Source: a bacterium
Lineage (GTDB): Bacteria; JAJVIF01
Assembly: GCA_022072165.1 (NCBI GenBank)
Contig: JAJVIF010000002.1
Span: forward strand, 616,063-680,062
DNA: 64,000 bases
Direction: 5' to 3'
The position numbers and the translations under genes were made by a program. The first letter of the stretch is position 1. Each line of letters starts with the position of its first letter. Shown piece after piece: positions 18,064-58,139 of this stretch. The notes beneath the pieces are model-generated. The model was given only the letters and a program-made list of their open reading frames with translations. It was not told the origin of the DNA and ran no database searches.

Positions 18064-18990
18064 ATGGCCCTGCCCGACCTCACCTCGCTCCTGATGCTCT
18101 GCGCGGAAGAGGAGCGCTGTCGCGGACTCATCGCCTTTGGCCCGGCCCTGCGGGACCACGCACCGCCAGCAGCCGAACTCGGGCTGCTACTCATTGCTGA
18201 TGATGCCGAGCTGAACGCGTCAGAGCTCCCCCTGCAGGATCAGATCGCGAGTCCGGATCCCGATCAGCCGCCGATTCGGCTGATCAGCTGTGGGCTGGCG
18301 CAGTTCGCGTCGGCCGCCCAGGACCCGGCCGAAACCGCCTGGTTCCTGCACCTGAGTGAAGGAGTGGTGCTGTTCGATGCCGACTCCAGCATCACGCCCC
18401 TCTGGGAGGCTGCCAGGGCCTGGACCCCGGCGCGTCTGGCGCGTGCCCGGTTGCTGCGGACTGGGGAACTGACCCGCTTTCTGGATGCGGCGGATCGGGC
18501 CATGGAAGAGCAGGACTGGGAGACCGCCCTCCGGGCACTGGCCGATGGGCTGATCACACAACGTCGGCTGGAGTTCCTGCGGGCCCAGGCCCATCCGGGG
18601 TCGAGCTTTTGGGGCATGGAACTGCCGGAAGGGATCGCGGCGGGGCACTTTCATGCGCTGGGTACTGATGTCACGACTCCGGAAGCGCTGGAGGGGCTGG
18701 CAGAAGTCCTCGCACTGGCGCTGGATGTCGCGCTGGAGGAGAGCTTCCCGACTTTCGCCCGACTCCTGGCACCCCATCCCATGGGGGTCGCTGTCGATAC
18801 GCTTCATTTTGATCCGCTGCTGGAAGACTTGCCGCACTGGGACCTGGTGCTCTGGCGACATCATCGACGGGGGGCGGTGGAGATCCGGGCGGAGCGTCGG
18901 GAACTCCCCGATCTGCCGGGTCACTGGACGACCAGCCTGATGGTGCAGCTTGCGGACGCTACTTCGCCGGGTGATTCCGAATCCAGCTAA
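18064..18990 (+). CDS. Nucleotidyltransferase-like protein, catalytic residues not evident
   Basis: A 308-residue cytosolic protein. The start FGPALRDHAPPAAELGLLLIADD aligns in style with the GSxxxG...DxDLLV core of minimal nucleotidyltransferases, and LHLSEGVVLFDAD with their later strand, but the acidic pair is replaced (ELGLLL). Residues about 120-175 form an amphipathic helical block like a HEPN or kanamycin-nucleotidyltransferase C-domain. This is a fold-level suggestion only. An in-frame extension to 17989 is rejected because a -10 hexamer precedes the ATG at 18064. Its last 32 bases overlap the 3' end of the convergent kinase gene. Confidence 0.65.
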   Translation: MALPDLTSLLMLCAEEERCRGLIAFGPALRDHAPPAAELGLLLIADDAELNASELPLQDQIASPDPDQPPIRLISCGLAQFASAAQDPAETAWFLHLSEGVVLFDADSSITPLWEAARAWTPARLARARLLRTGELTRFLDAADRAMEEQDWETALRALADGLITQRRLEFLRAQAHPGSSFWGMELPEGIAAGHFHALGTDVTTPEALEGLAEVLALALDVALEESFPTFARLLAPHPMGVAVDTLHFDPLLEDLPHWDLVLWRHHRRGAVEIRAERRELPDLPGHWTTSLMVQLADATSPGDSESS

Positions 18991-21103
18991 CCCACTCAGT
19001 CCCCCTGAACTGACCATGATTGCGGAATAGATGGATGTACCAGCGCCGCTCCAGGTCCATACAGAGGCGTGTGATTTCGAGTCCGGTGGGGGCTTCGCGA
19101 TATTGCCGGGGGGTCGGAGCGCGGAAGAACTCCCCCTGCTCCGCCATGATGGTAAGGGTGCGCTGCTGCAACGGCGAGAGGAAGGCCCAGCGAGCCGCCT
19201 GCAGCTGATCCACAGACCCCTGGAGGAGGGGATCCCGCATGGCGGTGAGGTCTCCGGGAGTCAGGGACGCCCGGCCATGCTGTTGCTTGCGATGGTGCAG
19301 CGCCTCCATCCAGTAAGCAGTCCAGGTGAAAAACTCGCGGTAGCTGGCGAACTGATGCGACCGGGAAGTTTGAATCAGATGCTTCAGAACGGCGGGGTCG
19401 CCGATGAAGTAGCCGAGCAGCCGCTGTAACTGCGCGGTTTCCAGCGGAGCCGGGGTGAATGGCTCGTAGCGCTGCGACTGTCGCTCCAGGCTCCGGACCA
19501 GGGCAGCCCAGGCGGGGTAGGCCGCCGCGACCCCGGCGATCCCGACCGGCAGTCCGGCGCAGATGTTGAGCACCGGCGCTGCTTCCAGCTTCGGCAGGAC
19601 CTTCATGAGCAGGCTAATGCAGCGCTGCTGAAAATCTTCGCAGTGGTCCCAAAGGAGTACCAGGGGCAGGTCTTCGGCGAGCTTACTGAGCACCAGGACC
19701 ACTTCGTTCGCCAGGCGCAGATCCCGCTCCGGTCCGAAGTGCGACTCATACCCTGCCGGGTCTTTGAGAAGGATGCGGAGTGTGGCATAGGCGTCCGGCG
19801 GTTCTTTGGTGAGATGCCGGAATTGCTCCTCCCATGCAAATTTGGGGTGCTGATGATGCGGGAAGAGTGCGTGGAAGACGCTGACCAGCGGTGTCAGCGC
19901 TGGTTCCCCCGGGAGGGGTGTCCAGGTCCGGACCAGCTGCAGCTCTTTGTTACCAACAAACGCCTCGTAGACCGCCCGACTGGTCCCCTGCCCCCGTCGC
20001 GCAAGAACCGGCACCTGACAGCCTTTGCCCATCCGGAAATGCCGGGTCTGCTCCCGCAGATGGAGGGCCAGGGGAGGTAGCGGATCCGCAGGACACCGGG
20101 GCGCGGGGAATCGCGGGAAGATCATGTTGGACCAGAACGCCGGACTGTCAGAGCGTCGGTGCGATTCCGGGAAAAGGCTGTAGTAGAAGTTCGACTGCTC
20201 CCGGGATTGCAGGAGCATGGCGATGTCCTGGAGCTGGGCGAAGCGTTCAGCTTTCCGCTTGCTCATCAGGCGATTGCAGAGGGCTGATGCGAAGCTCGTC
20301 ACCTGGGGATTGCGACGCCGGGCAGGGAGCGGCTGATCATGCTGATGCGCCGATGACTGCGCTTCCAGTGAATGCGCTTCGGGGAATGGAGGCACTCCTG
20401 TCAGCATGTAGTAGAGCAGACAGCCCAGGGAGTACTGATCCGCCTTGCTGTCGACCTGTGAAGAATCGATGAACTGCTCAGGGGCGGCAAAGGGGGCGGT
20501 CCCGACAAAAGACCCATGACGGGTCAGATTGTCAAACTCCAGCAGCGTCGAGTGTCCGAAGTCCATGACTTTGACGCGGCCATCATTGGTCAGATAGACA
20601 TTGGAGGGCTTGAGGTCGCCATGGACGATGCGGTGGGCTTCCACCGCCAGGAGGGCCTGTACGACCTGGCTGGCGATCCAGAGGGCCTGCCCCTCGGGCA
20701 GTCGCCCTCGCTCGGTGACCTCCTGCTCAAGGGTTTTGCCTTCCAGGAGTTCCAATGCCAGATAGAAGATGGAAGTCCCCAGCACCTCGGCCCGCCCGGT
20801 GCCGAAGAGCTGCACAACATTCGGATGGGTCACGCGCATCAGCGCTATCCCCTCGCGCTGGAAGCGTTCCAGCCGCTTGGGGTTGACTGCATTCGGCTTC
20901 AGGATTTTGAGTGCCGCGACATCACCGCTTTTGAAGTGGGATGCGCGATGCACGACGCCAAAGGCGCCTTCGTCGATGTACTCCCCGACTTGCCATTCAT
21001 CCAGCCGCTTCCCTTCGAGCTTGAGGGCTAACCCTTCAGGCTCGCGGGTCGCAGGCCGGGCTTGGGGAGGGGCTGGACCTCCTTCCCACCGATTGACGAC
21101 CAT
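18959..21103 (-). CDS. Ser/Thr protein kinase fused to an AAA_16-like ATPase domain
   Basis: A 714-residue protein. Residues about 38-300 are a complete Hanks-type kinase: Gly loop DEGAFGVV, ATP lysine K66 in AALKIL, catalytic loop HGDLKPSN (161-168), DFG (181-183) and APE. No transmembrane segment follows. Residues about 355-600 resemble the signalling ATPase part of PknK-like proteins, with a Walker-B-like LPLVLLWDHCED, but the P-loop position reads GQGTSRA, without the usual Lys. The C-terminal 110 residues are helical with a wHTH-like end. It is probably a cytosolic regulator. The start is uncertain: no Shine-Dalgarno is seen at 21103. Confidence 0.87.
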   Translation of the reverse strand: MVVNRWEGGPAPPQARPATREPEGLALKLEGKRLDEWQVGEYIDEGAFGVVHRASHFKSGDVAALKILKPNAVNPKRLERFQREGIALMRVTHPNVVQLFGTGRAEVLGTSIFYLALELLEGKTLEQEVTERGRLPEGQALWIASQVVQALLAVEAHRIVHGDLKPSNVYLTNDGRVKVMDFGHSTLLEFDNLTRHGSFVGTAPFAAPEQFIDSSQVDSKADQYSLGCLLYYMLTGVPPFPEAHSLEAQSSAHQHDQPLPARRRNPQVTSFASALCNRLMSKRKAERFAQLQDIAMLLQSREQSNFYYSLFPESHRRSDSPAFWSNMIFPRFPAPRCPADPLPPLALHLREQTRHFRMGKGCQVPVLARRGQGTSRAVYEAFVGNKELQLVRTWTPLPGEPALTPLVSVFHALFPHHQHPKFAWEEQFRHLTKEPPDAYATLRILLKDPAGYESHFGPERDLRLANEVVLVLSKLAEDLPLVLLWDHCEDFQQRCISLLMKVLPKLEAAPVLNICAGLPVGIAGVAAAYPAWAALVRSLERQSQRYEPFTPAPLETAQLQRLLGYFIGDPAVLKHLIQTSRSHQFASYREFFTWTAYWMEALHHRKQQHGRASLTPGDLTAMRDPLLQGSVDQLQAARWAFLSPLQQRTLTIMAEQGEFFRAPTPRQYREAPTGLEITRLCMDLERRWYIHLFRNHGQFRGTEWVSWIRNHPAK

Positions 21104-49318: not shown

Positions 49319-49410
49319 GCACCCGGGGATTCGCCCATTGTCGGCGTGTCTGTCAGCGGTTCCCGGCAGACCCCGACCCATCCTCAGTCTGGCTTCAGAG
49401 GAGCAACACC

Positions 49411-52400
49411 ATGGGGTTTGAACCACGCGAGCGGATGCGGTCGTCGCAGGCCGCACTGATTTACAAAGGCATCGATGAGATGCAGGGTGGCGAAGCGACC
49501 CTCAAGATTTTCAAGGACCCCTATGGCAGCGACAAGGCGTTCGCCCATGCCATTGATCAGATTGCGACGCCCCTGAAGTACATCCATAACGAGCACATTG
49601 TCCGGGTGCTGGAGATCGGGATGAAGTCGGACCGTCTGGCGGTCGCGACCGAGATCATGCCCCTGAGTCTGGGGGATGTCCTCCATGCCAAGGAGCCGCT
49701 GGAGCTGCAGCGAGCGCTGGGGGTCATGCTGAAAGTGCTCGATGGCCTGGAGGCTGGCTATGCCGAAGGGCTGCCGCAGCATCTGGACCTGAAGCCCAAC
49801 AACATTCTGGTGGACCAGACCCTTGAGCAGGTGAAAGTCGGCGACTGGTATCTCGCATCCGGGATGGCAGCGGTGAGCGGCGATCTGAGGAAGAGCTGGG
49901 AGGATCCGCGGTATCTTGCGCCGGAGCAGATTCACGGCATCGGGGAGGTCTCGGAAGCGACCGACCTCTACCAGTGCGGCCTGTTGCTCTATCACGTCCT
50001 GACCGGTTTCCCGCTGTTCCAGCATTCTGATGAAGAACAGATTCGCTATCAGCAGGTCTACACCGACCCGCAAAAGCTGATCGACTACTACACCCAGATT
50101 CCGCAGGTCGTGCGGGAGATTCTGCTCACCGCCCTCGCGAAGGATCCCGGGAAGCGCTTTCAGTCGGTGACACAGATGCGGGAAGCACTGGCCTATGCAC
50201 TGGCGGCGTCATCGTTCAAGAAGGTCCTGCCGGCCGACTCACTGGTGGGGCAGATCATTGGAGATCGCTGGCAGCTGGTGGAAGAGCTGGGACCCGGTCC
50301 CTTCGCCCGGACCTACAAAGGCCTGGAAGTCGGTCGGGACACGCCAGTCACAGTCAAAGTCTGGGACAAGGGGATCTCGGCGGAGGAAGGCTTTGTCCGG
50401 GCGATCAACAAGGACCTCTATTCCCAGACCACCCTGCAGCATCCTCACATCCCGGGGCTCAATGGGTCGGGCTGGCATCAGAGTCAGTTTTATACGGTGA
50501 AACCATTTTTGCCCCTGAGCCTGCGCGAGGTTCTGACCCAGGAAGGACGGCTGGCACCGGAGCAGGCCCTCCGGGTGGTCCGGAAGGTCCTGGGCATCCT
50601 CGAGTACCTGGTCCGCAAGGGGGGCTTCACGGCGCATCAGCAACTCGCGCCGGAGCATATTCTGGTCCATGCCTCGGGGGATGATTTCTGGCTGACCGAC
50701 TTCCGGCTGGAAGAGACCTCCCGCTTTATCCGGGAGCGCTACGGCTTGCCACTGTCGACCTGGCGGTCGATGGCACCGGAGCTCTGGCAGGACGAAGTGT
50801 CGGCGATTGGGCCGGCGACGGACATCTATAGCCTCGGGTGTCTGCTGTTCGAACTGACGACTGGTGAGCCGCTATTCCCTGGCGAGGATGTGAAAGCGGT
50901 CGAGCAGTTGCATCTGACGGGAGATCCGCGACAGGCCATCGATGGCCATCAGGAAATCCCCCTCGTCTTCCACGACCTGCTGACCAAAATGCTGGCGCGG
51001 GACCCCCGGGAGCGCTACCAGACCTACCAGGAGTTGCTGGATCACATCGTGAGCCTGGTGGGCGAGAGCGAACGTGGCACCGGCCTGCAGCTCATCGATG
51101 CCGGCTCGACCGTCAAGGGCAAGTTCCTCCTCGAAGAGCGGCTCCCGCTCTACGATGACCCCCGGGGTGCTACGACCTATACCGGGGTCCACAATCAGAC
51201 CGAGACGCCGGTCATGCTCTGGTTTTACAAGCGCACCCGGACCACCGAACTGGAAAAGCGCTTTCAGAAGGTGATGGAAGAGGCGCAGACCTGCGACCAC
51301 CCCAGCATCCTGCGGGTGCTCGACTTCGGCCACGACAAGGGGGCGTTCTTCTATGTCTCCGAGTTGCGCGCCACGACCCTTGCCACGCATCTCGAAGCGC
51401 ACGGTCCTTTCTTCGTGGACCTCGCCTGCGAGCTCGCGAAACAGATCGCCGCGGCCTGCCAGGTCCTGGAGCAGCGCGGACGGGACTGCCACGGTTCCCT
51501 GTCGCCCCGCTTTTTGATGCTCCAGGAAAAGCCCGAGTTGCGGGTGAAGCTGGCGGGTCTCGAATGGCGGACCCTGAGCACCGGCGGGACCGACCAGAAC
51601 GAAGCCGCCTATCTCGCGCCGGAACAGATTACGGGTCTGGGGAAAATCGGCCCCGCGGTGGATCAGTACGCTCTCGGCCATCTCCTGGTGACCCTCTGCA
51701 CCGGGACGCCGCTCCTGAGTGGCGAGGCGGCGACCATTCATCAGCAACATGTGTTCGGCGATCTCGCGGGTCAACTGGCGACCCGGGAAGAGATCCCGGC
51801 GGGCCTGCGGCGCATTATCAGCAAGCTCATCGAACGTGATGCCACGGCCCGGTACTCCGACTGGCCCGAGTTCCTCGATGATCTTGATGACTTCCTCGCG
51901 GCATACACGGGCGCTGACACGCCGGCTGAAGCGCTGAACTTCCTGGTCGGATCGGAGACCTATCAGACTCTCATTGGACGGGAAGAGGACCGGGCGACCT
52001 ATGTCATGCGGATGCCCAACTCCTCCACCGGAATCCGGGGCATCTTCGCACTGGCGCAGGGAGTCGGCGATCCGGCGGATGCACTGGTGGCGCAGAACAA
52101 GGTCGTGGAAGAGCTGGAACGGACCTTCAGCCCATCGCGACTGCAGCAGCTCGACTTCATCGATAACCCCATGACCCTTATCGAGGAGGGAATCACCCGC
52201 TGCAACGGCGTGGTGAATCAGGAAGCGTTCCGGCTGAACCGCATCGGCAAGCTGGGCGCGGAACTGCTGCTGGGGATGGTGACCCGGGACCGGCTCTATC
52301 TCGGACGGGTCGGGGGGGCGTTTGCCTATGTCTTCCGGGCGCAGTCGATCCGGTCGTTCCTGCGGAAGCCTGTGGAGCAGAAAATCCTCGGACGGGAGAT

Positions 52401-53238
52401 GAGCATCAAGTTCGATTCCACCGAGCGGCACCTGCGTCCGGGCGACACCCTGGTCCTGGGGACCGGCAATCTCTCCCGGATGCTGGCGGACATCGAGATG
52501 CGGAACATCGCGGTCTCGACGGTGGATTCGCAGGAAGCGGCGGAGCGGATTGTCAGCCTCGCCTCTTCCCGGGCCAAGGGCCAGCCGCAGTATCAGGTGG
52601 GTATCGCAGTGCTGGTCGCGCAGTTCGGCGATGTCACCGCCGAGCATGTCTTCCGGGCACGACGGGGATTCCAGTCGGGTCCGGTGATTCATGTCTACAG
52701 CAACCGGGCGCAGTCGTTCCTGCAGGAAGGGAATCTGGAAGCGGCGGAGGCGGAGTTGCGGAAGGCGGCGGAAATCGCGCCGGAAAACTTCACGGTCAAC
52801 TTCAAGCTCGCCCAGATTCTGCTCCGCAAGGGGCAGGCGGATCAGGCCTGGGACTTCTGCCAGCGCGCCCTACAGCTGATGCCGAACTTCGTGGAAGGCC
52901 ACATCCTCCTGGGAGACATCCACTACTTCCGGCATCGACGTCGCGAGGCCCTGGACGAGTACATGTATGCGGTCCATCAGGGCGGGACCAATCCCCATTC
53001 CTGGATGGCGCTGGGGCGGTACTACTACCAGGAAGCGCTGTATGGCGATGCCGCCGGGGCGTTCGCCAAGGCGGTGAGCCTGGAGCCGGGCAACGACGAG
53101 GCGAAGGCGCAGCTGGACCTGGCCGAAAAGCGCAAACGGAGTCTGGGCGGGATGCTCTCAGAGCAGGGAGCGAAGACCCGACAACAGCTGTTGCAGCCGT
53201 TTAATCGTCCTGCGCCGAAGAAGAAGCCCCGACGTTAG
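49411..53238 (+). CDS. Triple kinase-like, PP2C-like and TPR multidomain protein
   Basis: A 1275-residue cytosolic protein with no membrane segment. Kinase-like domain 1 (about 9-265) keeps K32, HLDLKPNN (124-131) and APE but has DW at 145-146 instead of DFG and no Gly loop. Domain 2 (285-550) has a partial Gly loop, K316 and DFR at 430-432, but HQQL replaces HRD. Domain 3 (566-832) has HGS at 694-696, no DFG and no ATP lysine. Residues about 845-1075 follow the PP2C fold with its metal Asp positions replaced (AQGVGD, RVGGAF, GTGNLS). TPRs span about 1095-1235; the tail is Lys/Arg-rich. At most domain 1 is catalytic, so a scaffold role is likely. It overlaps the next convergent gene by 38 bp. 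Confidence 0.88.
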   Translation: MGFEPRERMRSSQAALIYKGIDEMQGGEATLKIFKDPYGSDKAFAHAIDQIATPLKYIHNEHIVRVLEIGMKSDRLAVATEIMPLSLGDVLHAKEPLELQRALGVMLKVLDGLEAGYAEGLPQHLDLKPNNILVDQTLEQVKVGDWYLASGMAAVSGDLRKSWEDPRYLAPEQIHGIGEVSEATDLYQCGLLLYHVLTGFPLFQHSDEEQIRYQQVYTDPQKLIDYYTQIPQVVREILLTALAKDPGKRFQSVTQMREALAYALAASSFKKVLPADSLVGQIIGDRWQLVEELGPGPFARTYKGLEVGRDTPVTVKVWDKGISAEEGFVRAINKDLYSQTTLQHPHIPGLNGSGWHQSQFYTVKPFLPLSLREVLTQEGRLAPEQALRVVRKVLGILEYLVRKGGFTAHQQLAPEHILVHASGDDFWLTDFRLEETSRFIRERYGLPLSTWRSMAPELWQDEVSAIGPATDIYSLGCLLFELTTGEPLFPGEDVKAVEQLHLTGDPRQAIDGHQEIPLVFHDLLTKMLARDPRERYQTYQELLDHIVSLVGESERGTGLQLIDAGSTVKGKFLLEERLPLYDDPRGATTYTGVHNQTETPVMLWFYKRTRTTELEKRFQKVMEEAQTCDHPSILRVLDFGHDKGAFFYVSELRATTLATHLEAHGPFFVDLACELAKQIAAACQVLEQRGRDCHGSLSPRFLMLQEKPELRVKLAGLEWRTLSTGGTDQNEAAYLAPEQITGLGKIGPAVDQYALGHLLVTLCTGTPLLSGEAATIHQQHVFGDLAGQLATREEIPAGLRRIISKLIERDATARYSDWPEFLDDLDDFLAAYTGADTPAEALNFLVGSETYQTLIGREEDRATYVMRMPNSSTGIRGIFALAQGVGDPADALVAQNKVVEELERTFSPSRLQQLDFIDNPMTLIEEGITRCNGVVNQEAFRLNRIGKLGAELLLGMVTRDRLYLGRVGGAFAYVFRAQSIRSFLRKPVEQKILGREMSIKFDSTERHLRPGDTLVLGTGNLSRMLADIEMRNIAVSTVDSQEAAERIVSLASSRAKGQPQYQVGIAVLVAQFGDVTAEHVFRARRGFQSGPVIHVYSNRAQSFLQEGNLEAAEAELRKAAEIAPENFTVNFKLAQILLRKGQADQAWDFCQRALQLMPNFVEGHILLGDIHYFRHRRREALDEYMYAVHQGGTNPHSWMALGRYYYQEALYGDAAGAFAKAVSLEPGNDEAKAQLDLAEKRKRSLGGMLSEQGAKTRQQLLQPFNRPAPKKKPRR

Positions 53239-53977
53239 GAATGGTCGCCGCGACAGGCTGGTGCGACCCCAGATGCGGCAGGTCATGCAGGATCCGCCCG
53301 GGATCACGCGGGGCGATGTCGAGCCCCAGCAGCCGGGCGAGGGTGGGGCGTGTCCCCTCGGTCCGGATGTAGCAACGTGCCGAGACCAGCAACAGCATCA
53401 CGAAAGCGGCGAGAGCGACCAGTCGCTCCGCGCCTGGAGTCCAGTCCGGGATCACCATCGGTCGCTGGTCCGGTGCCGCTGAGTACCCCCAGGCATCGAT
53501 GATGACCGCCACCAGCGCGCCATAGCCGAAGCGTCCGCCAGCGGTCCAGATCAGGTAGAGCCAGGGGGCGAGGGCCAGGGTCCAGCCGAGCCAGAGTTGT
53601 CCCACCGGACGTCCTGCGTCATGTTCTGCTGGTGTTGCAGCGGCGCGAGGCAGGAGGCGGTACCCGACCGCGCTGATGACCACCAGCAACACCAGAAATC
53701 GGATGACAAACTGCCGCGCCCAGGGGGAGGTCAGCAGGGATGCGTTTAGTGCTCCCCCCCCCCAGGTGGATTCCCGCAAGACCATGCTGTGCAAGCCGGG
53801 GCCGTAGGCTAAATCGAACATGCCCATGTGCTGGGATGCGAGGAAGGTCCCGTCGGAAGATGGTGGCGATCCGGCAGTGAGTTGCACCAGCGACGGGAAG
53901 CCGAACCAGAGCCCCAGGCAGACCAGCAGGACCCGCCACCAGACCAGGGTATGCACCGGGGGATCGACACGCGTCAC
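53201..53977 (-). CDS. Membrane protein, unknown, with a 10-base G tract
   Basis: A 258-residue protein with about four membrane segments (residues near 14-33, 88-105, 125-145 and 185-203: LVWWRVLLVCLGLWFGF, FVIRFLVLLVVISAVGYRLL, LWLGWTLALAPWLYLIW, LVALAAFVMLLLVSARCYI) and a soluble C-terminal tail of 55 residues. No family recognised. The start codon is GTG with TATCCT seven bases upstream, no Shine-Dalgarno: a leaderless candidate. Within the gene a run of ten identical bases (53754-53763) encodes a Gly run and could slip. Its 3' end overlaps the large kinase-like gene. Confidence 0.7.
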   Translation of the reverse strand: MTRVDPPVHTLVWWRVLLVCLGLWFGFPSLVQLTAGSPPSSDGTFLASQHMGMFDLAYGPGLHSMVLRESTWGGGALNASLLTSPWARQFVIRFLVLLVVISAVGYRLLPRAAATPAEHDAGRPVGQLWLGWTLALAPWLYLIWTAGGRFGYGALVAVIIDAWGYSAAPDQRPMVIPDWTPGAERLVALAAFVMLLLVSARCYIRTEGTRPTLARLLGLDIAPRDPGRILHDLPHLGSHQPVAATIPNVGASSSAQDD

Positions 53978-54048: not shown

Positions 54049-55002
54049 GTGCCCGGAGCTGCTCTGGTCCTGTCAGGCCTCACCAAGCGCTATGGTCCGC
54101 CGGGGTCGGTGCCCGCAGTCGCCGATCTCTCCCTCACCATCGAATCCGGTGAGATTTTTGCGTTCCTCGGACCCAACGGCGCCGGCAAGACCACCACACT
54201 CAAGATGGTACTCGGACTCATTCGTCCCACCGCCGGGAGCGCCACGCTGCTTGACGGGCGCATTACAGACCCCCGCATCCGTGGTCGCCTCGGGTACCTC
54301 CCCGAAGAGCCGGTCCTCCATACATTTCTCACGGTGTCGGATCTCCTCCGGTTCTATGCCGGACTCTTCGGCTTTAGCGGGGCTGAAGCGCAGCGACGGA
54401 TCGACCGGACGCTGGAGACAGTCGGCATGAGCGATCGGAAGACGCAGCGGCTGCAGGAGCTCTCCAAGGGGCTGCGACAGCGGGTCCTGCTGGGACAAGC
54501 GCTGATCAACGACCCCGACCTCATCCTGCTCGATGAGCCGCAGTCCGGCCTCGATCCGGTCGGGATCACCGACCTGCGTCGGTTGCTCCATGAGCTGAAG
54601 AGCGCGGGCAAAACCATCTTCCTCAACAGCCATCAGCTCACCGAGGTGGAGCAGGTGGCGGATCGCATCGGCATCATCCGCCAGGGGCACCTCATCCGGA
54701 CTGAGTCGACCAGCGCTATGTTGGGCGGCACTCAGGAATGGGTAGTGACCTTCGCCGGACTTACGCTGACCCAGGCGGATCAGGTCCTGCAGCTGGTTGC
54801 TGAGCGCACGCAGTCGCGCATTACGCTGCAGGGCGACCCCGGATCGCCCCAGCTGTTCCGCTGCCCATCGGAGGCCATCGCGCAGGAAGTCATTGCGGCG
54901 GGACAGGCAGCCGGTGGTCGCCTGACCGGCCTGCAGGAAGAACAGACCAGCCTGGAGCAGGTCTTCCTGCAGCTCATGGCGGAGGTGCCGGCCCATGGGT
55001 GA
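54049..55002 (+). CDS. ABC transporter ATP-binding protein
   Basis: A 317-residue ATPase of the CcmA/DrrA/Gld type. Walker A GPNGAGKT (about residue 42), Q-loop region, signature LSKGLRQRVLLGQAL (variant of LSGGQ), Walker B LILLDEPQSGLD and the H-loop NSHQL. The C-terminal 90 residues are the extra domain common in ABC-2 exporters. The GTG start has Shine-Dalgarno GGGAGG five bases upstream. It overlaps the permease gene by eight bases and heads an operon with lpxB, so a cell-envelope lipid or polysaccharide cargo is possible, but this is inferred only from context. Confidence 0.93.
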   Translation: MPGAALVLSGLTKRYGPPGSVPAVADLSLTIESGEIFAFLGPNGAGKTTTLKMVLGLIRPTAGSATLLDGRITDPRIRGRLGYLPEEPVLHTFLTVSDLLRFYAGLFGFSGAEAQRRIDRTLETVGMSDRKTQRLQELSKGLRQRVLLGQALINDPDLILLDEPQSGLDPVGITDLRRLLHELKSAGKTIFLNSHQLTEVEQVADRIGIIRQGHLIRTESTSAMLGGTQEWVVTFAGLTLTQADQVLQLVAERTQSRITLQGDPGSPQLFRCPSEAIAQEVIAAGQAAGGRLTGLQEEQTSLEQVFLQLMAEVPAHG

Positions 55003-55978
55003 CATGAGCCCGGAGCAGATCCTCGGTCCGTTGGGCTGGGTCGGGAGCATGGCGGCGGCCGGGACGCTGATCTGGCTCCTGCTGAATTCTCGGATTCGGG
55101 CGCTCGCCTGGCTCACGACCCTGGAGAGCATCCGGCGGATGGAGTTCCAGGCGATTCTGCTACTGGCGCTGACTCTCTTTGCGGGTATCGGCTATCTCCT
55201 CTTTGCACCAGGCATCAAGGAGTCCCCGTTGTGGGGCGTGGTCATCAGCCAGATCGGCAGCGATGGCCTGGGAGCGCCGGGGGTCAACACCGACCCGAAG
55301 CAGATTTTCTTCCTGCAGTTCGACTACTACATGCAGTCGGCGATGTCCTTCTTTGCGGAGCTCTTCGCCCTCTTCATGTTGCTGGCGCTGGGGCTCTTCC
55401 TGATCAGTAACGACATCCAGCAGGGGTTCCTGCTGACGCTCTTGCCGAAGCCACTTTCACGGGGGGAGTATCTCTGGGGACGGGGACTGGGACTCGCCAT
55501 CACCGTCGGTGCTGCCTGGATCATCATGGGCCTCCAGATCTTCCTCCTCTTTCTTATCAAGAATCCCGCCGTACTGACCCAGCCCACCGCTCCGGAGTGG
55601 AAGATCCTCTTCTGCACCGGTGTGCTGCTGATGAAGTGGGCGAGTCTGGCGGCAATCCTCTTTTTCCTGACCCTGCGGATGCCACCAGTCGCGGGGGGAC
55701 TCGTGGTGCTGCTCCTCTTTGTGGCAGGTCATATCTCGTCCAACGTTCACGACCTGGCGACCAATGTCGCACTCGACTGGCCCCTGCGTCTCCTCTTCTG
55801 GAGCGGCTATGTGGTGATGCCGCATTACGACCGCGCCTGGAGCGCCATCATCCTCGACCCCACCGCAAATCTCTTTCAGACCCATACCGATGTCGCCGGT
55901 TTTGTCGGCTGGGCCTTCACCTATGCCATGGTGATGGGCCTGGGGTCCTGGCTCTGCTTCCGGCACCGCGACCTGTGA
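54995..55978 (+). CDS. ABC-2 type permease
   Basis: A 327-residue inner-membrane protein with six or seven hydrophobic segments, starting AAAGTLIWLLLNS then FQAILLLALTLFAGIGYLLF, with the ABC-2 pattern GLFLISNDIQQGFLLTLLPKPLSRGEYLWGRGLGL, where LISND..QG...L.KPLSR.EYL.G fits the cytoplasmic coupling region. It pairs with the ATPase encoded just before it. Its last bases (GTGA) can also start the lpxB frame. The permease at the right edge of the window (62940) has the same coupling motif (LANELERRSIYTLISKPLDR), so it is a relative. Confidence 0.88.
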   Translation: MGDMSPEQILGPLGWVGSMAAAGTLIWLLLNSRIRALAWLTTLESIRRMEFQAILLLALTLFAGIGYLLFAPGIKESPLWGVVISQIGSDGLGAPGVNTDPKQIFFLQFDYYMQSAMSFFAELFALFMLLALGLFLISNDIQQGFLLTLLPKPLSRGEYLWGRGLGLAITVGAAWIIMGLQIFLLFLIKNPAVLTQPTAPEWKILFCTGVLLMKWASLAAILFFLTLRMPPVAGGLVVLLLFVAGHISSNVHDLATNVALDWPLRLLFWSGYVVMPHYDRAWSAIILDPTANLFQTHTDVAGFVGWAFTYAMVMGLGSWLCFRHRDL

Positions 55979-55998: not shown

Positions 55999-57291
55999 AT
56001 GGGTCCCGTCCGTATCTTCCTCTCGACCGGCGAACTCTCCGGCGACTATCACGCCATGCACCTGGTGAAAGCTCTCCGGGCAGCCGCCGTGACGCAGGGG
56101 CTCACCCCTCAGATCGCTGCCAGCGGTTCGCATCATTTGCGGGAAGTGGTCGATGACCTCTGGGAGGAGACGGCGGACTGGGCGGGCATCGGGATCCTCG
56201 ACTCCCTGCGGGTCGGCCCGACAGTCGCGCTGGGATGCCGTCGGATCATGCAGCGGATGCAGCGCTGGCAGCCCCACCTGGTGATCGGCGTGGATTACAG
56301 GGTCGCGAATCTCCGGCTGCTGCAGGCGGCACACAAGCAGGGCGCGCGAACGGCGTATTACTTCCCACCAGTCCACTGGGGAAGCACGAGCAGCAAGGCG
56401 CGGAAAGCGCTGGTGCAGGTGTATGAAGGAAAGGGCGGGGAGCGACGCAAACCCGATCGCTTTGACCGGATCGCGGCCTGTACGGACCTGGTGCTCCTCA
56501 CCTATCCCATCAGCGAGGGGGAGTATCGCCGGGCGGGCGCGAACGTTCATTACATCGGGCATCCTCTCTGGAACGCGATCCAGTCCGAGCTGTCGATACC
56601 TGCTGATGAGGTCCGGGCCGGGTTCGGACTGCCGCCTGCCAGTGATGACCCCGCCGCGCCTTTACTCGTGGGCCTCTTTCCGGGGAGCCGTACCCAGGAA
56701 TTGCGCGACATCTGGCCGGTGATGCGGGACTGGTTGCGGCAGTACGGCCCCGACTGGCCACAGGTCACCTGGCTGGTGTCGGTGGCGCATCCCCGGTACC
56801 GGTCGCGACTGGTCGCTGACATCGACCGCTTTCCGCCAGCGCTGCGATCGCAGGTCCAGATCATTGAGGGGATGGCTCCGGATCAGCTTCGGGCGATGGA
56901 CCTGGTGCTGATGAAGTCCGGGACCGCGGCGCAGACCGCGTTGTTGCTGGGGCTGCCGATGGTGGCGTGCTATCGCATCGGGATGCCGCCGGTGCTCGGT
57001 CCATTGATTCTGGCGCTGTCGCGTCAGCTCTTTCTCAATATGCCGTACTACACGTTCCCCAATTTGCTGGCCGAACGTGCCATCGTGCCGGAACTGATTC
57101 AGGAAACCTGCACAGTCGCGGGCTTGCAGGCCGCAGTCGCGCCGCTGTTATCGGACCCCGCTGCCCGGGACGCGCAACGTGCAGCCCTGCTGGAGTTGCA
57201 TGACCGGCTGGTGCGTCCGGATGCCATCAGTCGGGCGGCGTCCATGCTGCTCGACCTGGTCGTGCCAGCTGTGGGTGGAGCCGACACATGA
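55999..57291 (+). CDS. lpxB: Lipid-A-disaccharide synthase
   Basis: A 430-residue family GT19 glycosyltransferase that joins UDP-diacylglucosamine and lipid X in lipid A synthesis, at the inner membrane. Visible blocks: N-terminal RIFLSTGELSGDYHAMHL, GSHHLRE, LFPGSRTQEL and the C-terminal MKSGTAAQTALLLGLPMVACYRIG. The middle (YYFPPVHWGSTSSKARKALVQV) diverges from the usual SPSVWAW segment and carries an insert, so substrate length preference may differ. The ATG at 55999 is used; GTG at 55975, overlapping the permease stop, is in frame and possible. It supports an LPS-bearing outer membrane. Confidence 0.9.
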   Translation: MGPVRIFLSTGELSGDYHAMHLVKALRAAAVTQGLTPQIAASGSHHLREVVDDLWEETADWAGIGILDSLRVGPTVALGCRRIMQRMQRWQPHLVIGVDYRVANLRLLQAAHKQGARTAYYFPPVHWGSTSSKARKALVQVYEGKGGERRKPDRFDRIAACTDLVLLTYPISEGEYRRAGANVHYIGHPLWNAIQSELSIPADEVRAGFGLPPASDDPAAPLLVGLFPGSRTQELRDIWPVMRDWLRQYGPDWPQVTWLVSVAHPRYRSRLVADIDRFPPALRSQVQIIEGMAPDQLRAMDLVLMKSGTAAQTALLLGLPMVACYRIGMPPVLGPLILALSRQLFLNMPYYTFPNLLAERAIVPELIQETCTVAGLQAAVAPLLSDPAARDAQRAALLELHDRLVRPDAISRAASMLLDLVVPAVGGADT

Positions 57292-58139
57292 CTGATCGGG
57301 TCCTGGAATGGTGGCCGGCTGCCCCGGCACCCGCGTTTGGTCCGGCTCCGCAGCAACGCCTCCATGTGCTGCGGAATCTGGCCGCCGATGAGGCCGCATT
57401 GTTACGGCTGGCCAGCGCCGACCGGGCGCTGTTGCGGGCGTACTGCAATCCGCCATCGGTCATCCTGGGCTTGTCGCGTCGACGGCACCAGGATGTCCAT
57501 GTTGCGGCGTGTGAGGCCCGGGGGATCCCGGTGCTGCGTCGTGCCAGCGGCGGGGGGACCGTCGTGCATGACCCGTTTGTCGTGAACTTCGCCTGGGTGC
57601 TCCCCTGGTCCTGGCTGCCGGGATGCCATCTGCGAAGTCTGGCCGACAACGCGACCGAGGAAATCCTGGCCTGTCTCATCGCGGCGCTGCGGTCGTATGG
57701 GCTGGGGGCGCAACAGACGCGCATCAGTGATGTCAGCATAGGACGTCCACCGCGTAAGGTGGCGGGGTCGGGGCAGATGCGGAAGGTCGAGGGACTGATG
57801 CACCACATCAGCCTGCTGGTCGACCTGAATCTCCCCCTGATGGAAGAAGTACTGCCGATTCCTCATGATCGTCCGGGCCTCCCGCATCGGCAGTTCGTGA
57901 CCTCGCTGAAAGCGGCAGGCGTTGGACGTCAGTACGCCTGGGGACATAATGCGAGTAACGGGTTGGGATGGGTGAAGGTGCTACTGGACCTGGAGGAGCG
58001 GGTGTTATCCGCTACCTGTCGTCAATTTGGGTCGACTTTCCGCCCGTTGAGTGCATCGGATATCGCGCTGCTGGGGGAGACCGGGGAAGCGCTGATAGCG
58101 TCTAAATATGGCGAACAGAGCTGGATCGAACGGCTGTAG
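57288..58139 (+). CDS. Lipoate/biotin-protein ligase family protein
   Basis: A 283-residue protein of the BPL/LplA/LipB fold. Core: PPSVILGLSRRRHQDVHVAACEARGIPVLRRASGGGTVVHDP, with the RRASGGG lipoate-binding loop, then a catalytic-type Lys in RKVAGSGQMRKVEGLMHHISLLVDL. It attaches or transfers lipoate or octanoate (or biotin) onto carrier domains; which one is not clear. The C-terminal accessory domain of LplA is reduced. It overlaps lpxB by ATGA, an unusual companion, so it may simply be co-transcribed. Confidence 0.87.
   Translation: MTDRVLEWWPAAPAPAFGPAPQQRLHVLRNLAADEAALLRLASADRALLRAYCNPPSVILGLSRRRHQDVHVAACEARGIPVLRRASGGGTVVHDPFVVNFAWVLPWSWLPGCHLRSLADNATEEILACLIAALRSYGLGAQQTRISDVSIGRPPRKVAGSGQMRKVEGLMHHISLLVDLNLPLMEEVLPIPHDRPGLPHRQFVTSLKAAGVGRQYAWGHNASNGLGWVKVLLDLEERVLSATCRQFGSTFRPLSASDIALLGETGEALIASKYGEQSWIERL

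Follow-up and report, generated by a model that had tools for sequence, protein, structure and literature searches.

The window analysed here, a 64,000-nucleotide stretch of a bacterial contig, contains a single open reading frame of 1275 codons (49411-53238, + strand), whose 1275-aa product joins three kinase-like domains, a PP2C-like domain and TPRs in one chain. This protein is probably a scaffold or switch without catalytic activity, in which no more than one pseudokinase would bind ATP and the TPRs would dock clients.

Three kinase-like domains, a PP2C-like domain and TPRs form one protein

The start of the frame agrees with the starts of two independent orthologues and lies 212 nt beyond the end of an AcrB-type gene. 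The features assigned within and next to the frame are as follows:

49400 to 49403, + strand: GGAG, a likely ribosome-binding site 8 nt before the ATG (read from the sequence)
49411 to 53238, + strand: whole frame, K1-K2-K3-pseudoPP2C-TPR (reading of the frame; orthologues 43-48% identical)
49411 to 50205, + strand: kinase-like domain 1, aa 1-265 (Pfam, profile, residue alignment)
50233 to 51075, + strand: kinase-like domain 2, aa 275-555 (Pfam, profile, structure model, residue alignment)
51094 to 51915, + strand: kinase-like domain 3, aa 562-835 (Pfam, profile, structure model, residue alignment)
51934 to 52644, + strand: predicted pseudo-PP2C domain, aa 842-1078 (family profile, structure model, motif alignment)
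52690 to 53145, + strand: TPR region, aa 1094-1245 (Pfam, boundaries approximate)

When the domains were scanned apart against the Pfam cut-off of 31.7 bits, three separate Pkinase matches were obtained, at 99, 93 and 57 bits for domains 1, 2 and 3 respectively. Profile searches against the PDB placed PknB/Stk1/StkP-type kinases at the top for the same three domains (1e-30, 4e-30 and 2e-28), the domain 1 match at 1e-30 being to Stk1 and identifying this domain as a kinase fold. No transmembrane segment was detected at the usual hydropathy, the best 19-residue window averaging 1.3. The original prediction had proposed this five-part layout, and it stands: profile searches support every domain, and structure predictions back domain 2, domain 3 and the PP2C domain as folds. 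That prediction depended on domains 2 and 3 being kinase folds and on residues 845-1075 being PP2C-like. A joint structure model of domains 2 and 3 had PknB as its best match (TM 0.85 on target), and the predicted structure of the PP2C-like region matched bacterial PP2Cs.

The family is single-copy in the genomes that carry it

Within the window's phylum, one copy per genome was found in all four genomes examined, namely those of the window, AUK107, LacPavin_0920_SED3_MAG_49_9 and CSMAG_1386. These proteins are 43-48% identical and have the five-part layout in common; the LacPavin and CSMAG copies are cut by a contig end, while the others are full-length. A second phylum, little known like the first, carries one copy in 7 of 10 genomes examined, and these relatives consist of two kinase-like domains, the pseudo-PP2C domain and TPRs, amounting to about 1010-1110 aa where complete. 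TPRs are present in every family member. When 385 sampled genomes were searched, every family member scored at least as well as 1e-78, and the matches that came next, ordinary PP2Cs, reached no better than 1e-23. In a tree of the kinase-like domains, K1, K2, K3, KA and KB each formed one clade; the deep order was unresolved, and a tree-based pairing of the three domains of one phylum with the two of the other was dropped for this reason.

Catalytic residues are missing from each kinase-like domain

The motifs read in the original prediction (HLD and DW in domain 1, HQQ in domain 2, HGS and no DFG in domain 3, and the lost metal motifs of the PP2C domain) were all recovered, and comparison with the orthologues shows how far each substitution extends. 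Domain 1 of the window protein retains K32, D126, N131 and D145, with HLD replacing HRD and DWY or DWF replacing DFG, so that the DFG Gly is Tyr or Phe. It has neither a Gly-rich loop (RSSQAA stands there) nor the alphaC Glu, which is Ile or Val. The catalytic Asp126 is present, as HLD, in the window and AUK107 proteins, and is Ala in two of the four orthologues, LacPavin (HLAIKPNN) and CSMAG (HLAIKPTN). Across the window's phylum, domain 2 shows no variation at the GxG of the G-loop, K316, D430 or D335, the last of which occupies the alphaC Glu position, and the DFG Asp is kept as DFR; the catalytic Asp is Gln or Ala (HQQ/HGA) and the Mg-binding Asn of HRDxxxxN is His. Domain 3 has Trp604 at the ATP Lys site, again invariant in the window's phylum, HGS, YGS or YGR in place of HRD, and no DFG Asp.

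Over the whole family, the catalytic Asp occurs in 2 of 26 kinase-domain copies, both of them domain 1. If a pseudokinase is taken as a domain from which at least one of the ATP Lys, HRD Asp and DFG Asp is gone, domains 2 and 3 qualify in all four orthologues and domain 1 in two of them. Judged by what an active kinase should have, domain 1 falls short in its catalytic Asp family-wide, its Gly-rich loop and its alphaC Glu, and domains 2 and 3 fall short in the HRD Asp. The progressive loss of catalytic residues from domain 1 to domain 3 that had been proposed is not what we see, because domain 2 has the DFG Asp (as DFR) and a good nucleotide pocket, the best of the three.

These residues bear directly on a reading in which domain 1 is a working kinase held back by the pseudokinase and pseudophosphatase domains of the same chain, while the TPRs bring substrates. 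Such an arrangement is conceivable for the window and AUK107 proteins only, in which Lys32, Asp126, Asn131 and Asp145 are all present, and the Pkinase score of 99 bits is in its favour. The original prediction is to be amended here, in that the Gly-rich loop and alphaC Glu are missing from domain 1 as well. Given also the Ala at position 126 in LacPavin and CSMAG, the Tyr or Phe at the DFG Gly and the lack of a catalytic Asp in all kinase domains of the second phylum, we consider a working, self-restrained kinase unlikely. Some residual activity of domain 1 in the window and AUK107 proteins, which have the Lys, catalytic Asp, Asn and DFG Asp, is possible.

The PP2C-like region is a predicted pseudophosphatase

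Searched by itself, the PP2C region falls under the Pfam cut-offs (SpoIIE, E=0.018). A profile built from five relatives finds solved PP2Cs, the best being the cyanobacterial tPphA (E=7e-7), and an AlphaFold2 model built from five sequences (pLDDT 79, pTM 0.81) matches PppA, PstP and tPphA at E values of about 1e-14 and TM of about 0.73. In the window protein the metal-binding motifs are replaced (ADGMGG by AQGVG, GDSR by GGAF, SDGL by TGNL) or, in the case of DNxT, lost. By alignment and motif scan, none of the 11 family members shows any recognisable PP2C metal motif among these four. The same scan of ordinary PP2Cs drawn from the same profile found at least two of the four motifs in 23 of 24 proteins and one motif in the remaining protein. 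All 11 pseudo-PP2Cs form one clade (support 95/96; 97% of bootstraps). A chance or over-called PP2C assignment is ruled out by the profile match, the structure match and the tree, and we conclude from the residues and the predicted fold that aa 842-1078 constitute a pseudophosphatase fold.

TAB1 is a PP2C pseudophosphatase, and a TAB1 chain is a weak match of the PP2C-region profile (E=0.021). By analogy, the pseudo-PP2C might bind and activate a separate, active kinase in trans, with the pseudokinase domains and TPRs acting as docking sites. TAB1 is described as a regulatory subunit of the kinase TAK1 (PMC3245275), and the window's genome does encode active kinases. On the other hand, the similarity to TAB1 is no closer than that to other PP2Cs, and no kinase gene was seen adjoining any family member, such that activation in trans of this kind appears improbable.

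The pocket-bearing domain differs between the phyla, and every domain is conserved

In the second phylum, no kinase domain has the catalytic Asp; the last kinase domain has the ATP Lys and DFG Asp, and the first has lost both. As judged by alignment, the domain that bears the ATP-pocket residues is a different one in the window's phylum and in the second phylum. This observation is relevant to another reading, in which domain 2, or in second-phylum proteins the final kinase domain, runs a different transfer reaction, as SelO does in AMPylation and SidJ in glutamylation. The invariance of the G-loop, K316, D335 and D430 despite the loss of the HRD Asp would fit such a reaction, and a review of bacterial pseudokinases (PMC12599244) provides precedent, noting that pseudokinases called by sequence may have other activities, with SelO and SidJ as examples. 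The likeness to SelO and SidJ is one of precedent; the pocket-bearing domain is not the same in both phyla and domain 2 has His for the Asn of HRDxxxxN. We therefore hold repurposed chemistry to be quite improbable.

Selection was assessed domain by domain in two pairs of close relatives. For G063 and G064, dN/dS was 0.05-0.10 in each domain at a dS of about 1.2, while for LacPavin and CSMAG it was about 0.03-0.06, values that are rough since dS is saturated. Every domain tested is under strong purifying selection, and the degenerate domains are thus being kept rather than decaying, since dN/dS is about 0.03-0.10. A functionless, decaying remnant of a kinase/phosphatase fusion, which the loss of nearly all catalytic motifs might suggest, is rejected as extremely improbable in view of these values in all domains and the distribution of the family as long intact frames, one copy each, in 11 genomes of two phyla.

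A nucleotide-responsive scaffold is the proposed function

We propose that the protein is a cytosolic signalling scaffold or switch, probably descended from a combination of a kinase and a PP2C phosphatase in which both chemistries were lost. Domain 2 would bind nucleotide without phosphate transfer, a role that the last kinase domain, having the ATP Lys and DFG Asp, may take in the second phylum. The nucleotide state of this pseudokinase could then set the shape of the domain array. Binding of proteins or phosphopeptides may fall to the pseudo-PP2C and to domain 3 with its Trp, and clients may be held by the TPRs; as partners, the ordinary active kinases of the genome, together with their substrates, are probable. 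The original prediction of a signalling scaffold whose domain 1 is regulated by its own pseudodomains survives in its first half, given the purifying selection on inactive folds and the TPRs in every member. Its second half, an active domain 1, finds no support as the function of the family: two of the four orthologues carry Ala for D126, neither the Gly-rich loop nor the alphaC Glu is present, and the kinase domains of the second phylum are devoid of a catalytic Asp.

More tentatively, the family may be a core protein at phylum level whose entire kinase-phosphatase module has become a nucleotide-gated, chemistry-free switch: one pseudokinase would read ATP, the pseudo-PP2C would read phosphoproteins or kinases, and the TPRs would hold clients. 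In the window's phylum domain 2 is the candidate ATP reader, and in the other phylum it is the final kinase domain, in genomes that have active kinases and in which a canonical PP2C Ser/Thr phosphatase was not detected. With several kinase domains and their partner phosphatase domain degenerate in one conserved, single-copy protein, the family would provide an uncluttered natural example of signalling that works through fold and not through catalysis. It makes testable the idea that kinase and PP2C folds, once both have lost their activity, can persist side by side as a binding module.

Relation to known kinases, phosphatases and pseudoenzymes

All three kinase-like domains resemble the PknB/StkP-type Hanks Ser/Thr kinases in fold (sequence searches rank PknB, Stk1 and StkP highest, and the structure search with domains 2-3 returns PknB first). 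Unlike those proteins, each domain here misses some of the catalytic Asp, DFG Gly, alphaC Glu and ATP Lys, and the chain has no transmembrane segment. Residues 842-1078 likewise share the fold of the PPM/PP2C phosphatases PstP, tPphA and PppA, whereas all recognisable metal-binding Asp motifs are lost in 11 of 11 members. The eukaryotic PP2C pseudophosphatases TAB1 and PHLPP2 offer an analogy, as they have a PP2C fold without activity and TAB1 regulates a kinase, but they have no close sequence relation to the present family. To our knowledge, neither is fused to kinase domains.

Bacterial pseudokinases are described as experimentally largely unexplored (PMC12599244). Among those covered in that review, MviN/ActPs3 and GLW have degraded motifs in common with the present domains, a likeness by description. 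Bulky residues occupy the nucleotide pocket in both, aromatics in MviN and Leu/Trp in GLW (PMC12599244), and W604 of domain 3 is a comparable bulky aromatic in this pocket. The review's main text makes no mention of PP2C, TPR or tandem domains. In the literature searched, nothing relevant was found on bacterial PP2C pseudophosphatases or on kinase-PP2C-TPR fusions. A limited literature search also did not return the same domain combination, its single-copy conservation in two phyla, or a single chain that has lost both its kinase and its phosphatase residues. The architecture appears to be new and is assembled from known folds; its absence from a limited set of papers is itself no proof of novelty.

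Genome context

The genome from which the window derives (G000) encodes other kinases with canonical HRD/DFG motifs and six SpoIIE-type phosphatases, while the Pfam PP2C_2 and PP2C models had no match in the whole genome, nor in G001 and G002. Upstream of the gene in the window are RND export genes, and upstream of the G062 and G063 members are genes that appear, by eye, to be of membrane-fusion and FtsX-like permease type. We give the neighbourhood little weight as a functional clue because no neighbour is kept in one arrangement; neighbours vary between members and name no pathway.

Several features of these neighbourhoods are recorded here. A lipoate-protein ligase-like (LplA) gene lies close to the family's gene in the window (57288-58139), in SJ870 (L041:5215-5904, about 140 bp upstream) and in G062 (L053:13996-14667, called by eye and not by Pfam). 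An ABC ATPase and permease (ABC-2-type) pair lies less than 1 kb from the gene in the window (54049-55978) and in AUK107 (L038:3022-4922) in differing arrangements, the two ATPases being 33% identical. On the opposite strand of the window, a frame without a Pfam match (53201-53977, - strand) covers the gene's final 38 nt.

Other kinase-containing frames were also noted. One of 714 aa, with HGDLKPSN and DFG, is located in the window at 18959-21103 (- strand). It is counted among the canonical kinases of the genome, as are the frames at G000:C1:256968-259406, C1:1170543-1172861 and C1:1003951-1004760. Elsewhere in the same genome (L110:1044-6177, on G000:C1), a kinase-FHA protein of 772 aa (HRDLNPNN) is followed by a 963-aa frame that combines WD40 repeats with a degenerate kinase-like portion, in which APE has become PPEV and HRD is missing; the locus is possibly a second kinase/pseudokinase pair. 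Finally, three genomes of the phylum each encode one protein of about 1200 aa with an N-terminal kinase-like domain (HGDLH/HDDLH; L112:972-4631, L114:547-4101 and L115:643-4158), and those at L112 and L114 contain AAA_16 and TPRs by Pfam.
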